From a virus: DNA of 25,957 nucleotides. How positions within the stretch are numbered: the stretch's first letter is position 1; the number at the start of each line of letters is the position of its first letter. The DNA lies in the IMG/VR virus record IMGVR_UViG_3300032893_001332, positions 1-25,957 of that record. One strand, written 5' to 3'. Below the pieces are notes generated by a model. The model saw only the letters and a list, made by a program, of their open reading frames with translations. It did no database searches and was not told where the DNA came from. The position numbers were made by a program, and so were the translations under genes. Shown here piece by piece: positions 2,012 through 25,957 of this stretch.

Positions 2012-2093
2012 CTCGGCTACTGAATATATGAGAGACAATTTAAGTCTCGACTCAGACCTCAACAGACGGGGTCACAAACCAAGGAGAAACGAG

Positions 2094-3989
2094 ATGATCG
2101 AACAAGCACAAGAAGATATCGACATTCAAAACCCAACGTGGGGTGAGGATGCACCGAAAGGTGGGAAAGTCGTCCTCTCCCGAATCATCAAAGAAAAGGC
2201 TACTGTTCCGCTCTTCTTTGGTCAGACTCTCATCACATCGCTCCGCGACATGGGGTACAACAGCACCACTTCCGCATTGTGTGAACACGTAGACAACGCA
2301 ATCCAGTGGGGCGCAACCGAGGTGAGGGTGTATTTTTCTCAGACAGGCCGAAAAGGAGACTACAACACCGACGTCCTCGTTTTCGACAATGGCCTGGGGA
2401 TGGCACCTAACGTCCTCAAAATGGCGACTTCTTTCGGCGGATCGATGGTCTACGGAAATCGTTCCGGGATCGGCCGCTATGGAATGGGAATGAAGACTGC
2501 CGCGCTCAGCGTGAGCCCTATCATGGATCTTTATTCCTGGCAAGAACCGTCGGCGATCTACAACATGACTCTCGACGTTGAGGCCATCGGAAAGGAGCGA
2601 ACCAATCTTATCGAATTGCCCGATCCAACCCTGATTAACGAGTTGCCGACTGAACTGTCCGACATTTTGACAAAGCCACTCTCATTTCCGACACGCCACG
2701 ATGAACAGGAGTTGTTTGCATCCGATGCAGACGATCTCAAGGAGCGACTTGGCAGGTCTGGAACGATTGTCTTCATGCCGGGATGCGATAGGCTCACATT
2801 CGCTAAGGCTCGTACTCTGTGTGAACACGCCGTGAAGGAGATGTCGCGAATATATCGAAGGTTCTTGGCGAAAGGGTTGAGACTGTTCGTAAACAACCGA
2901 ATTATCGAACCGTTCGATCCAACCTACTCGATTCCGAACGCAAGGCACGCGAAGCTGCTGGACGTGCCAACCAAGAATAGTCGCCTTGTAGTCTCGAAGA
3001 TCGTTCGAATCAAGCGCAAAGATGGCCCGCATGACGGCGACGAAATTGCTGCAACCGAGCCGGTGACAGTGCGTCTGTATGCATTGCCAATCGAAGAGTG
3101 GGCCCCGTTGCCTCAAAAAGTGAAGAAGAACGATCTGCGAATATACGATGACCACACCGTCTCGTTCGTTCGCAACGACCGCGAGGTGTTTATCGGCACT
3201 GTGCCTGAGATCGCTAAACGACACGGAGACACCAACTGGTTCCGAGTTCAGATCGACTTCAGCGGCGCCCTCGATGAAGCATTTGGCGTGGCCGCCAACA
3301 AGCAAGGCGTCCGTCCAAAGGACTACGTCTTGACTGAAATATCGCGGGAGTTGCAGGGAGAGATCGGCGCAGTTCGGGAACAGATCAAGCGTTACCAGAG
3401 CGAACAAACCGTTAAAGCGCAAGGTGGCGGACAAACGCCAGGGGAGAGCCGGGCTGAGGAAGCCGAGGGTTTACAGACAAAACCCTTCCCGGACGGCCCT
3501 GCCCCGCTCACGGAAGAAGAGCGTGAGCAACTGGATTCGAACCTCCGTACCCTTGCGATAGTGCTCAAGCGCGACGAGGAGACCGACGAAGAGGCATTCC
3601 AGCGTGTCAAAAACTCAAAGTACATCATCCACTACAAACATGATGAGTACTGGCCGTTCTACCACGTGGATCACCGATTTGGAAAGGTCATTCTCACGAT
3701 CAATACTGCTCATGCATTTTATGACCAGCTATATCAACCACTAAGTGACGCCGCAATCGCTTTGGCCGTCACGAAGGCGGAGAATGCCCCGATAGATCAG
3801 CCAGAGAAGGACGAACCTCAAACTTTTGAGGGTGCGCGAGACGCGCTGATTGCCCTACAGTTGATGCTGCTATCACTGGCACGTACACAAGGCTCGATGT
3901 CGGTTCACGATCCGGACCGTTCGCAACTGTTCGACCAGTTCCGCAAGGAGTGGTCTGCTACGTTCCAGACCCAACTTACTGCACCATGA
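2094..3989 (+). CDS. GHKL ATPase, MutL/MORC-like (HATPase_c_3 type)
   Basis: The protein has 631 residues. ATG 2094 is chosen because AAGGAG lies 7 bases upstream; an in-frame ATG at 2028 lacks such a site. The N-terminal ATP-binding domain carries the GHKL motifs: N-box ALCEHVDNAI (Glu64, Asn68), DNGLGM at 98-103, and GRYGMGMKTAA at 127-137. A second domain follows with VAANKQGVRP, resembling the lysine-bearing loop of MutL/MORC transducer domains. The rest is a charged linker and an unassigned helical C-terminus (about 465-631). The family opens and closes around ATP to clamp nucleic acid or partners. Bacterial MORC/MutL-like members occur in restriction-like defence operons with Z1 helicases and nucleases (Iyer, Abhiman and Aravind), but no such partner is visible beside it. 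Its lower GC and opposite strand suggest acquired cargo. Confidence 0.85.
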   Translation: MIEQAQEDIDIQNPTWGEDAPKGGKVVLSRIIKEKATVPLFFGQTLITSLRDMGYNSTTSALCEHVDNAIQWGATEVRVYFSQTGRKGDYNTDVLVFDNGLGMAPNVLKMATSFGGSMVYGNRSGIGRYGMGMKTAALSVSPIMDLYSWQEPSAIYNMTLDVEAIGKERTNLIELPDPTLINELPTELSDILTKPLSFPTRHDEQELFASDADDLKERLGRSGTIVFMPGCDRLTFAKARTLCEHAVKEMSRIYRRFLAKGLRLFVNNRIIEPFDPTYSIPNARHAKLLDVPTKNSRLVVSKIVRIKRKDGPHDGDEIAATEPVTVRLYALPIEEWAPLPQKVKKNDLRIYDDHTVSFVRNDREVFIGTVPEIAKRHGDTNWFRVQIDFSGALDEAFGVAANKQGVRPKDYVLTEISRELQGEIGAVREQIKRYQSEQTVKAQGGGQTPGESRAEEAEGLQTKPFPDGPAPLTEEEREQLDSNLRTLAIVLKRDEETDEEAFQRVKNSKYIIHYKHDEYWPFYHVDHRFGKVILTINTAHAFYDQLYQPLSDAAIALAVTKAENAPIDQPEKDEPQTFEGARDALIALQLMLLSLARTQGSMSVHDPDRSQLFDQFRKEWSATFQTQLTAP

Positions 3990-3992
3990 GGA

Positions 3993-4030
3993 AAAGAGCC
4001 TGGCGGTTTCCCGCCAGGCTCTTTCTTTTT
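3993..4030 (+). terminator. Rho-independent terminator of the GHKL ATPase gene
   Basis: A perfect 14-bp stem (3993-4006 with 4011-4024, core GAGCCTGGCGG/CCGCCAGGCTC) has a TTTC loop and is followed by CTTTTT. It begins 4 bases after the ATPase stop codon. This is the clearest intrinsic terminator in the window, and it separates the ATPase gene from the next plus-strand gene. Confidence 0.95.
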
Positions 4031-4054
4031 AGTTGTAACATCACGGCATTTCCG

Positions 4055-4076
4055 GCTACTATTCAGTAGTAGTAGC
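4055..4076. repeat. Short hairpin GCTACTA/TAGTAGC downstream of the terminator
   Basis: GCTACTA (4055-4061) and TAGTAGC (4070-4076) form an inverted repeat. An alternative tight hairpin is CTACT/AGTAG at 4056-4069. ATTCAGTAG (4061-4069) is the exact reverse complement of CTACTGAAT at 2017-2025, just before the ATPase gene. The preceding CGGCTACT is also shared (2014-2021 and 4053-4060). These may be matched operator half-sites controlling the two cassette genes. The 229-base gap otherwise shows no promoter I can support. Confidence 0.35.
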
Positions 4077-4218
4077 AATACAGGCGGGTTGACCGCGCCG
4101 TCAGGCCATAGGGCACAAAGTCCCAGGACTCACAGCCGGTTGATTCATAACCAATAACCTTCAACACATTAGCGTCAGGGTCGCGACATCGATCGCTGCC
4201 CACAGACCAGGAGACGAA

Positions 4219-4677
4219 ATGAACGATCCTCTCGAATACCCGTGGTCCACCTACCTTGAACTTCAATCAAAGTTAATGCACAGCCACACCGTCTCTGGCG
4301 TGACCAACGCCATGGAAGATGGACTCAATCATATCCTGCAAACAATCGAGGCCACTGCTGTCCCATCTAAGTCTGCCGAGTTGCAGTCACAGGTTGACAC
4401 GAGAATGTCCACCTCCGCATGGAATGAGCGCAACCATGCTCGGCTCCGGAGGAAATTTGCAGGCGATATCGCCAGATCGGATAAAGCTGAGAGTGGGATT
4501 TTCGCATTTGTCAGAATCCGTGATATCGCCGACTTTCTCGGCGCAGCAGCATCGAAACTCCTCAAGGCGATCGCTGACGGTTGGACCTATGACCAGATCA
4601 GCAGGGCCGAAGGCGGCGCAGGCGGCCAGCTGCGAACGCGAGTATCGCGGTTAAGATCACGGCTGCGGAATCATTGA
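4219..4677 (+). CDS. Small protein with C-terminal sigma-region-4/LuxR-like helix-turn-helix
   Basis: This 152-residue protein starts at ATG 4219, 4 bases after an AGGAGA ribosome site. The N-terminal 110 residues (MNDPLEYPWSTYLELQ...) match nothing I recognise. The C-terminal 40 residues (ADGWTYDQISRAEGGAGGQL, then RTRVSRLRSRL) match the spacing of sigma-70 region 4/LuxR helix-turn-helix domains (WSYEEIA...GTVRSRLSRAR-like), so DNA binding is likely. It lies 229 bases downstream of the GHKL ATPase, beyond that gene's terminator, so it needs its own promoter. It shares the ATPase gene's lower GC, suggesting they travelled together. It could be a regulator of the cassette or a partner of the ATPase; neither is shown. 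Its 3' end overlaps a minus-strand remnant by 7 bases. Confidence 0.7.
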   Translation: MNDPLEYPWSTYLELQSKLMHSHTVSGVTNAMEDGLNHILQTIEATAVPSKSAELQSQVDTRMSTSAWNERNHARLRRKFAGDIARSDKAESGIFAFVRIRDIADFLGAAASKLLKAIADGWTYDQISRAEGGAGGQLRTRVSRLRSRLRNH

Positions 4678-5216: not shown

Positions 5217-5801
5217 TTATTGCACTATTTCCCGCAAAGCACCTTGCGGGGGCTGATCGAGTTCCGCCTTGAGGAGCTCGACGATCTTCGAGAATTCTCC
5301 CCATCCCTTGAGCCCGCCATTGACGCGGCGCCGGACGAGCTCCCACTCTTCCGACTCCGCCGCTTCCGCGACGCGATGATCGCGGAAGAAGACCGCGAAG
5401 ACCTTCGCCGCGATCGCCGGATCGAGCGCGAGATCGGGGTTCTCCTGGAGATCGGCTCCGATCTCCCGTCCGATCGCACGGTAGTTCGCGCGTCCCGTGA
5501 TCTGTACGAATCCGCGTCCGCGATATCGTTCGCCGTCTCCCGCCTGGACGTTCCCGAGATCGGAGCGTCCGTCGTATAACTTCGCGAGGTACGCCGCTCC
5601 TCCCCGCTCCTTGCAGGGAGAGAATGATCCCGTCTCGACCCCGATCGTCGCGAACGCCGCGACGAGACAGTTCGGGGACGCGATCCCGAACTCGACGAGC
5701 GCGTTCTCGACGAGCGGCCAGTTCGTCGCGACGTTCAAAGGCGGAGCGGGTTTCCCCGCTTCGCGGAGGATCGCTACGAGCTTCTCGATCGGGACGTTCA
5801 C
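5217..5801 (-). CDS. GH19 (chitinase-like) endolysin
   Basis: This 194-residue single-domain lytic enzyme is expected to cleave the peptidoglycan glycan strand at lysis. The GH19 signature YRGRGFVQITGRANY spans residues 93-107. IGVETGSF around 53-60 supplies the likely catalytic glutamate (Glu56). There is no signal peptide and no separate binding domain, so it probably needs a holin for export. The start is GTG at 5801, overlapping the TGA of the preceding membrane-anchored gene as GTGA, so translation is coupled. Length is typical for phage GH19 endolysins of Gram-negative hosts. Confidence 0.92.
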   Translation of the reverse strand: MNVPIEKLVAILREAGKPAPPLNVATNWPLVENALVEFGIASPNCLVAAFATIGVETGSFSPCKERGGAAYLAKLYDGRSDLGNVQAGDGERYRGRGFVQITGRANYRAIGREIGADLQENPDLALDPAIAAKVFAVFFRDHRVAEAAESEEWELVRRRVNGGLKGWGEFSKIVELLKAELDQPPQGALREIVQ

Positions 5802-24726: not shown

Positions 24727-24884
24727 CGCGCCCGAATAATGCCGGCGTAGCGATGCGCGAATCCAGCTTTTTTTTCTTCGACAACGTCGAAGGAGATTCG
24801 ACGGGCGCGAGGATCGCGAGACTTTACGCGGGGAGGAGCGAGAGTGTGAAACGAGAGGACGGGATCATTATTTTTCGAGCGCGA
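24723..24884 (-). pseudogene. 53-codon start-less remnant upstream of the gpW-like gene
   Basis: A minus-strand frame from TGA (24887-24885) to TGA (24725-24723) encodes 53 residues ending SFDVVEEKKAGFAHRYAGII and RAR. No ATG, GTG or TTG occurs in it. Its stop overlaps the next ATG as ATGA, exactly as between the other phage head genes, which argues it is the true C-terminal end of a lost gene. The large terminase or a small gene after it would be expected here. It also includes a CTTCGAC/GTCGAAG hairpin (24776-24792). Confidence 0.4.
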
Positions 24885-24926
24885 TCAGGACTCGACCGCA
24901 CATCTCCTCATGCCCGAGGAGAGCGT

Positions 24927-24965
24927 CTCCCCTGCCGAGTAGTGAGAGCCGGCATTGCAGGGGAG
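24927..24965 (-). terminator. Hairpin downstream of the restriction-type gene, possible terminator
   Basis: CTCCCCTGC (24927-24935) and GCAGGGGAG (24957-24965) form a perfect 9-bp stem around a 21-base loop, beginning about 22 bases after the stop at 24987. There is no U-tract. It may end transcription of the restriction-type gene before the phage cluster. The interval 24885-24986 holds nothing else I can support. Confidence 0.4.
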
Positions 24966-24986
24966 TCTTTCAAGTGTCAGACGACC

Positions 24987-25957
24987 TTACAATGGCTCTT
25001 CCAGCATTCTTCTGAGGTCGGCCTTCCAATCCCGGTCCTCATATTCGCCCTCATCGAGTACCTGCACCCGAAACGTCTCATCCGAGAAGTCCTTCGCAAG
25101 TTTTTGCCAAGGCACCTTGTGCCCGACCTTCCCAAAATATTCGGCTACTTTCCTTTTGTAGCTCGTGTCCTCACTGCCCTTGAGCTGTTTCCCCTTACTC
25201 TCAACAACGAGCACCGCCGCCATGGGTTTCTTGTTCTTGCCGCGCTGAACCACAAAGTCGGGATATATTTTGTTGCGACGATAACCTTGTATCGAAAAAT
25301 GCTCTGGTCCGATCAGATTCCGGTACCACCAGAGAACCTCAGGATGATTATCCAGGTATAGGGCCACAGACCTTTCGTACCGGTTGAGGTCATCAGGCAC
25401 ACGATCAAAGAGAGATCGCTGTAATGGCTCGTTGTCATCGCGTGCGAGCCAACGAGTCGCGCGGATACTAACCTTTGGCGGGATCTCGAAGCGTGCATCT
25501 CGACATTCGAGGAAGAACTGCAGTTGTTTGTTCCTATAGAGCGCTTCGAATGCTGATTGTGTTTGTTGGTCTGTGGAACGCTCAATTAAACCAGCGATTC
25601 TTTCGCGAATAGGAAACTTCACCAATCCCAATTCGCCGATGAGCTCTGGCATACGTCTTAGCAGCTCTTCAGTCGCCTTCCGCACTATTTCGCGTAGCTG
25701 CTTGTAACTGTAGTAATCAAACGAGAGACTCGCAACTAACCAGTTCCTAACCTGCTCATCGCTTTCCAGAACCGTCGCCCGCCTTTGCTCGACTGGCTCA
25801 ACCATATCTTGATCGAGAGTAATTCGATAAAACGAGTCTTTTGCAGTGGCAAGCTCTTGAGACAAATCCCAGTCTGCGTCGGCGTAGCCGAACTTTGTGA
25901 TGTCGATCTCGCTGATGAGGTGCCTAAAATAGTCGAGTACCTCGTACTCACCAGCAC
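24987..25957 (-). CDS. C-terminal part of a type III restriction Res-like/SF2 helicase protein (5' end outside window)
   Basis: The frame is open to the right edge, with 322 residues visible. A TTG at 25865 is only an internal codon: the upstream 30 codons (EYEVLDYFRHLISEIDITKF) also look coding. The visible part is a helical linker, then a PD-(D/E)xK nuclease-like domain: ERSVALYLDNHPEVLWWYRN, KIYPDFVVQRG (Asp) and VLVVESKGKQLKG (E-x-K). This order, with NEDT-like GSEDTSYKRKVAEYF after it, is the C-terminus seen in Res subunits and related DEAD/DEAH helicases. The helicase motifs would be upstream, outside the window. Lower GC than the phage genes indicates separate origin. A modification subunit, if any, is not visible. 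Confidence 0.75.
   Translation of the reverse strand, partial: AGEYEVLDYFRHLISEIDITKFGYADADWDLSQELATAKDSFYRITLDQDMVEPVEQRRATVLESDEQVRNWLVASLSFDYYSYKQLREIVRKATEELLRRMPELIGELGLVKFPIRERIAGLIERSTDQQTQSAFEALYRNKQLQFFLECRDARFEIPPKVSIRATRWLARDDNEPLQRSLFDRVPDDLNRYERSVALYLDNHPEVLWWYRNLIGPEHFSIQGYRRNKIYPDFVVQRGKNKKPMAAVLVVESKGKQLKGSEDTSYKRKVAEYFGKVGHKVPWQKLAKDFSDETFRVQVLDEGEYEDRDWKADLRRMLEEPL

Follow-up and report, generated by a model that had tools for sequence, protein, structure and literature searches.

The locus described here raises the question of why a virus should carry, on the strand opposite to its own genes, a gene for a large GHKL ATPase followed by one for a small helix-turn-helix (HTH) protein. 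The window (the whole stretch of DNA analysed) is a virus record of 25,957 bases, within which phage genes were called; its minus strand encodes a lambda-type portal, tail genes, an endolysin (5217-5801) and a serine integrase (about 1-1070). Two ORFs, listed at 2028-3989 (ATPase) and 4219-4677 (small gene), lie on the plus strand between the endolysin and the integrase, in agreement with the orientation and the placement between lysis module and integrase given in the first-pass annotation. The base composition of the cassette, already described there as deviating, departs from that of the window, with a GC content of 0.530 versus 0.604 (lowest equal-size stretch elsewhere in the window, 0.570) and a dinucleotide distance of 0.245 (maximum of 0.103 in the other equal-size stretches). 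This deviation in GC and dinucleotides implies a foreign origin, which supports the reading of the cassette as foreign cargo. Its left boundary had been placed at 2014, a position that falls within a promoter-like element (1995-2021, see below), and was given up. At the right end of the window (24750-25957), GC drops to about 0.49 and the ORFs have no PHROG or Pfam match; this may be a further foreign stretch that is truncated where the contig ends. Our analysis of the two proteins, their relatives and the leaders of both genes suggests that the cassette probably represents a self-regulated module directed against viruses, hitherto undescribed.

The ATPase gene was assigned to positions 2094-3989 on the plus strand (631 aa). 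The previously listed start at 2028 was replaced, and 2094 is most likely the correct one because it follows a Shine-Dalgarno sequence (AAGGAG, 2081-2086, plus strand; part of a CACARA-N3-4-GGAG block conserved in relatives) and aligns with the relatives, and because the ATG at 2028 lies inside the promoter and leader. The description of the protein as a complete GHKL ATPase held: all of the features by which membership of this superfamily is recognised (N-box E..DN, DxGxGM, GxGxxGxG and GT) were found, and in seven aligned members they are invariant, as CEHVDN (E64, D67 and N68 in the 631-aa numbering), DxGxGM (98-103), GIGRxGMGM (125-133) and GT (223-224). Consistent with these motifs and with the full-length relatives, the protein matched Pfam HATPase_c_3 (E 3.6e-17; 63.1 bits, cut-off 25), and the only relatives of the family profile among PDB sequences were MORC2 and MORC4 (E 0.001). 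Beyond the GHKL domain lie a predicted S5-like region and a C-terminal extension. Domain searches recognised no nuclease or other toxic domain in the ATPase, and its conserved C-terminal 200 residues had no family match. A putative S5 motif, in a stretch chosen by eye (residues 261-271, GLRLFVNNRII), resembles the MORC motif GhXhhpXXRhl given for the S5 domain by Iyer, Abhiman and Aravind (2008; PMC2292703), with V or I instead of a polar residue at position 6 and the first G missing in one relative (L007). As the MORC-specific motif is nearly but not fully matched, the ATPase is named here MORC-like rather than MORC. A structure model built from six sequences had a pLDDT of 43.5 and was left out of the fold searches. 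The N-terminal 120 or so GHKL residues also resemble MzaB of the MZA system (PADLOC E 6.6e-12; NCBIfam E 1.8e-12); assignment as MzaB was rejected, given a score of 46.4 bits versus a family cut-off of 850 and no match over the rest of the protein.

The small partner gene (4219-4677, plus strand) encodes a protein of 152 aa. No match was obtained in a Pfam search with the small protein of the window alone; an eight-member family profile matched PDB entries with HTHs of the LuxR type and of the ECF sigma-4 type (E about 1e-4), and the C-terminal HTH of the structure model superposes on DosR with a TM score of 0.80 (by target), both results confirming the sigma-4/LuxR-like HTH first noticed in the sequence. 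Like ECF sigma factors and LuxR-type regulators, the protein therefore bears an HTH of this type in its C-terminal 55 or so residues, whereas neither a sigma region 2 nor a receiver domain was detected. The N-terminal half (about 90 aa) is different; it is helical and contains a conserved W..Y...Q motif. The idea of a complete but divergent ECF sigma factor arose from weak Foldseek matches and from the look of the promoter-like element, whose TGTAAC-N16-CTAC we take to be ECF-like. Alignment of the family profile by hhalign with eight proteins of the same genomes, seven of them ECF sigmas and the eighth a response regulator (96.9%, E 1.5e-10), covered sigma region 4 only. As regards occurrence of the small protein without the ATPase, its other matches in those genomes span essentially the HTH half, those read being ECF sigmas or a response regulator. 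Sigma70_r4_2 was found in three of the eight members, with a best E of 3.6e-4, below the curated cut-off, and Sigma70_r2 (sigma region 2) was absent from every member searched. With region 4 alone aligning and region 2 not found by the available tests, the sigma factor assignment was rejected. A receiver domain was likewise not matched in these proteins of about 140-155 aa, for which the model is all-helical.

The first-pass annotation had proposed that the two genes form a conserved pair. In all nine relatives sequenced past the ATPase (ATPases 49-72% identical), the small gene adjoins the ATPase gene on its 3' side and on the same strand, at a spacing of about 190-290 nt. These relatives, which are few and include several close kin, originate from Acidobacteriota (L005, L006, L007 and L021), from Pseudomonadota (the proteobacterial genomes L008, L027 and L035, the last a RepC plasmid-type locus), from a Roseomonas plasmid (L004) and from a second viral contig that carries a terminase small subunit (L003). 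L005, which stops inside the small gene, was counted among the nine, and L020, a fragment ending within the ATPase, was excluded. The pair thus recurs in distant bacteria, on chromosomes and on four mobile elements (two phages, the Roseomonas plasmid and the second plasmid-type locus). The close subfamily is rare: each search recovered it in one or two of 129-398 genomes, seeds included, and viral scans with the A1 profile and the L007, L004 and L027 ATPases revealed no close viral member beyond L003. The annotation had noted no helicase, nuclease or methylase partner, and none occurs in the cassette of the window or is constant across the relatives. It had also envisaged ATPase homologues lacking the HTH gene; none was found within the close subfamily (at least 49% identity), and they do occur among distant ATPases near 25% identity, the neighbours of which are of RM/Dnd type and include a DEAD helicase with a phospholipase-D-family protein, DndB with a cysteine desulfurase, HNH or GIY-YIG nucleases and a second ATPase, as taken from annotation that may miss an unannotated small gene. 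Within its close subfamily, the ATPase-HTH pair is almost certainly a real functional unit.

Each gene of the pair appears to have its own control region. The sequence TGTAAC-N14-GGCTACT occurs at exactly two sites in the window, one 5' of the ATPase gene (1995-2021) and one 5' of the small gene (4034-4060), both on the plus strand, with 0 expected from shuffles. Of 11 members, 8 have GTAAC at 94-102 nt upstream of the start of the ATPase gene (it is GTCAC in L008, displaced in L027 and absent in L035), and it is similarly placed in the small-gene leaders of five relatives. The ATPase gene does have a terminator of its own, as had been claimed, in the form of an intrinsic terminator at 3993-4029 (plus strand) with a 14-bp stem (3993-4024), a 4-nt loop and CTTTTT. 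Judged from these signals, each gene appears to be transcribed as a unit of its own. This arrangement bears on the part played by the HTH protein, for which the chances of its being chiefly a regulator are about even. Alternatively, it could form a stable complex with the ATPase and serve as its DNA-targeting subunit: the HTH would load onto DNA, the ATPase would close around it, and the leader hairpins described below would do no more than keep the two proteins in proportion. The strict co-occurrence and fixed gene order of the pair would be consistent with such a complex, as would the variation of the other partners from locus to locus, such that the two genes by themselves may suffice for function; however, the terminator separates two apparent transcription units, and the small protein diverges faster (21-38% identity among members) than the ATPase (49-72%), and we regard the subunit explanation as rather unlikely. 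The separate units, the shared promoter-like element and the faster divergence make the HTH protein somewhat likelier to be a regulator than a subunit.

The leaders of both genes contain hairpins that, within the family, are very likely real. In the ATPase leader, the first (2032-2048, plus strand; GAGAC-AATTTAA-GTCTC) corresponds to a homologous stem GAGAGC/GCTCTC in relatives, in which three of six pairs have changed on both sides and 81% of cells are paired. The second (2055-2073, plus strand; GACCTC-AACAGAC-GGGGTC) lies immediately 5' of the ribosome-binding site. Its loop is AAYAGC in most relatives (as in GACGCT-AACAGC-AGCGTC of L035), with 95% of cells paired and both-side changes in five of seven pairs in a 5-member set; the copy in the window retains the shape (-7.0 kcal/mol, z -2.2) with the loop AACAGAC. 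In the small-gene leader, a hairpin with the loop CACAGCG is found in all eight relatives of the set, with 11 of 14 stem pairs changed on both sides, although four of the eight are close kin and the independent stem changes are therefore fewer than the cell count. This covariation was reached by none of 500 shuffles and was lost when the partners were slid. Searches of whole genomes returned one strong site per genome, always at the pair locus; since the found sites had trained the model, the informative part is the absence of other sites. In a blind test, a model built before L035 was found ranked the correct intergenic place of that locus first (18.4 bits, E 0.0096), at 34 nt before the start compared to 87-110 nt in the eight relatives. 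No match to the leader hairpins at the gathering score was found in Rfam for nine loci.

In the window, the probable counterpart of the CACAGCG-loop hairpin, identified by its position about 105 nt before the start, is a short, diverged GGG-CACAAAGT-CCC (4111-4124, plus strand), which folds no better than shuffles. An intact CACAGCG hairpin in the window was rejected, as the model built without the window misses this copy. The predicted RNA element is thus well supported for the family and partly for the phage copy. The CACAGCG and AAYAGC loops share an AYAG core, and the combination of fixed loops with varying stems argues for RNA and against a double-stranded DNA operator. A further hairpin with a RAYARY loop may be present in the last 40 or so nt of the small-gene leaders of L003, L005, L006, L008 and L021, adjoining the ribosome-binding site and resembling the hairpin of the ATPase leader; this comparison used a manual alignment, which is biased by construction, and the hairpin is therefore treated as a lead only.

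Together, the promoter-like elements of each gene and the conserved leader hairpins point to dedicated co-regulation of both genes. A more specific form of such regulation is conceivable but doubtful: one of the two proteins of the module would bind the ACAG-type loops in both leaders, and perhaps the promoter-like element, repressing the genes until infection titrates or modifies it, and the phage copy would have drifted in both loops. If true, a GHKL ATPase acting as an immune effector would come with an RNA switch of its own. The same tight, layered control, with a shared promoter-like element as well as leader hairpins, would also suit a toxin-antitoxin-like or abortive module, in which a harmful free ATPase would be kept in check by the small protein, at the level of protein or of expression, until infection. 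Residence of the pair on phages and plasmids would be consistent with this; however, domain searches revealed neither a nuclease nor any other toxic domain, the intergenic terminator is unlike the usual coupled toxin-antitoxin operon, and we know of no GHKL ATPase without a nuclease domain that acts as a toxin, making such a module improbable.

Support for a module directed against viruses comes from the neighbourhoods of the relatives, seven of nine of which lie among known or candidate defence genes. In L021, the pair is located between BREX PglZ/BrxL and a DUF6791/ThiF operon; in L007, it is flanked by a SNF2 helicase with a DUF1156 methylase and by an E1-E2/JAB pair; and in L005, it comes after a type I RM system. 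The phage contig L003 and L006 share the same downstream order, a metallo-beta-lactamase-like gene and then a membrane gene, the former corresponding in L003 to the PADLOC candidate PDC-M48B (E 1.3e-89). Candidate PDC-S21 (DUF4917) is found downstream of the pair in L004, and a Mrr nuclease, a DEAD helicase and an integrase are nearby in L027. The pair is surrounded by housekeeping genes in L008, and adjoins plasmid RepC and conjugation-type genes in L035. These neighbourhoods support a conflict role for the pair, short of proof. That the pair instead serves an ordinary phage interest unrelated to defence (e.g., lysogeny or the element's own DNA handling) would fit its integrase-lysis slot, opposite strand and foreign composition, the usual place of accessory genes, and the lack of defence neighbours in L008 and L035, but is quite improbable, as eight relatives reside on chromosomes or plasmids, six of them with defence-gene neighbours, which implies that the pair is not a phage-specific regulator.

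Two of these loci are of separate interest. Positions 331-12161 of L021 (reverse complement) hold a BREX-type island in which PglZ and BrxL, an XRE-ImmA gene, the pair and the DUF6791/ThiF (ubiquitin-like) operon are neighbours. The pair with its metallo-beta-lactamase-like and membrane-protein genes is found within 9-8074 in L003, where there is also a large RNase H/PD-(D/E)xK-helicase gene upstream, and within 7950-12402 in L006 (Acidobacteriota); this arrangement may be a larger version of the ATPase-HTH system.

A defence role of the pair, most likely against phages, is thus moderately likely from its genomic context. The ATPase would be the effector, recognising or trapping invading DNA, possibly as an ATP-driven DNA clamp by analogy with its MORC and MutL relatives; the HTH protein would be a dedicated regulator of both genes, acting via the promoter-like element or via the hairpins of the leaders; and the pair carried by this phage would serve as cargo that protects the lysogen. 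The full combination, a mobile, self-contained conflict module with an ATPase effector, an HTH partner that is mainly a regulator and a lysogen-protecting function, is tentative, at slightly less than even chances. Eukaryotic MORC-like GHKL ATPases silence transposons and viruses, and a system of only an ATPase and an HTH protein would be minimal and cloneable for the study of ATPase action on invading DNA. The covarying hairpins, of which each genome has a single strong site, are dedicated to this module. They indicate RNA-level control that belongs to the cassette itself, a rare one in defence islands, and the question of how immune ATPases stay silent becomes directly testable.

The published accounts found describe MORC/paraMORC-type ATPases in the company of helicases, nucleases or methylases, or with a nuclease domain fused to them (PMC2292703, PMC8011034, PMC12137116). 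The cassette resembles the prokaryotic MORC/paraMORC GHKL-S5 ATPases of PMC2292703 in its GHKL domain, predicted S5-like region and C-terminal extension, its sporadic distribution and defence-type neighbourhoods, and in having MORC2 and MORC4 as PDB relatives. Unlike the paraMORC restriction-type operons of these sources, it has no constant helicase, nuclease or methylase, its neighbours varying by relative, and it differs further in that a small sigma-4-HTH gene is dedicated to the ATPase and the leaders have conserved hairpins. An example of a GHKL ATPase in tested phage defence is provided by VcSduA (PMC12137116), a protein of the Shedu type in which this domain is N-terminal; there, a PD-(D/E)xK nuclease is fused to it within a single polypeptide, in contrast to the cassette, which has an HTH partner and no recognised nuclease. 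No description of the two-gene ATPase-HTH arrangement or of the leader hairpins was found in those parts of the open-access literature that were available, preprints excluded. Among MORC-like conflict ATPases, we regard the cassette as a variant, set apart by a new dedicated partner and by its leader RNA.

Several plasmids carry more distant GHKL ATPases in other gene sets. On a Leisingera plasmid (L009, 5515-12386), two such ATPases occur with a DUF4338 gene and a helicase gene, along with an opposite-strand gene of 210 aa that is sigma-like by eye and has no Pfam match. On plasmids of Pannonibacter (L030) and Trichormus (L031), distant GHKL ATPases belong to sets with helicase and phospholipase-D-family genes; both sets adjoin PAPS-reductase-family genes, and the latter also DndB and a cysteine desulfurase, which suggests restriction systems of a phosphorothioation-linked type.
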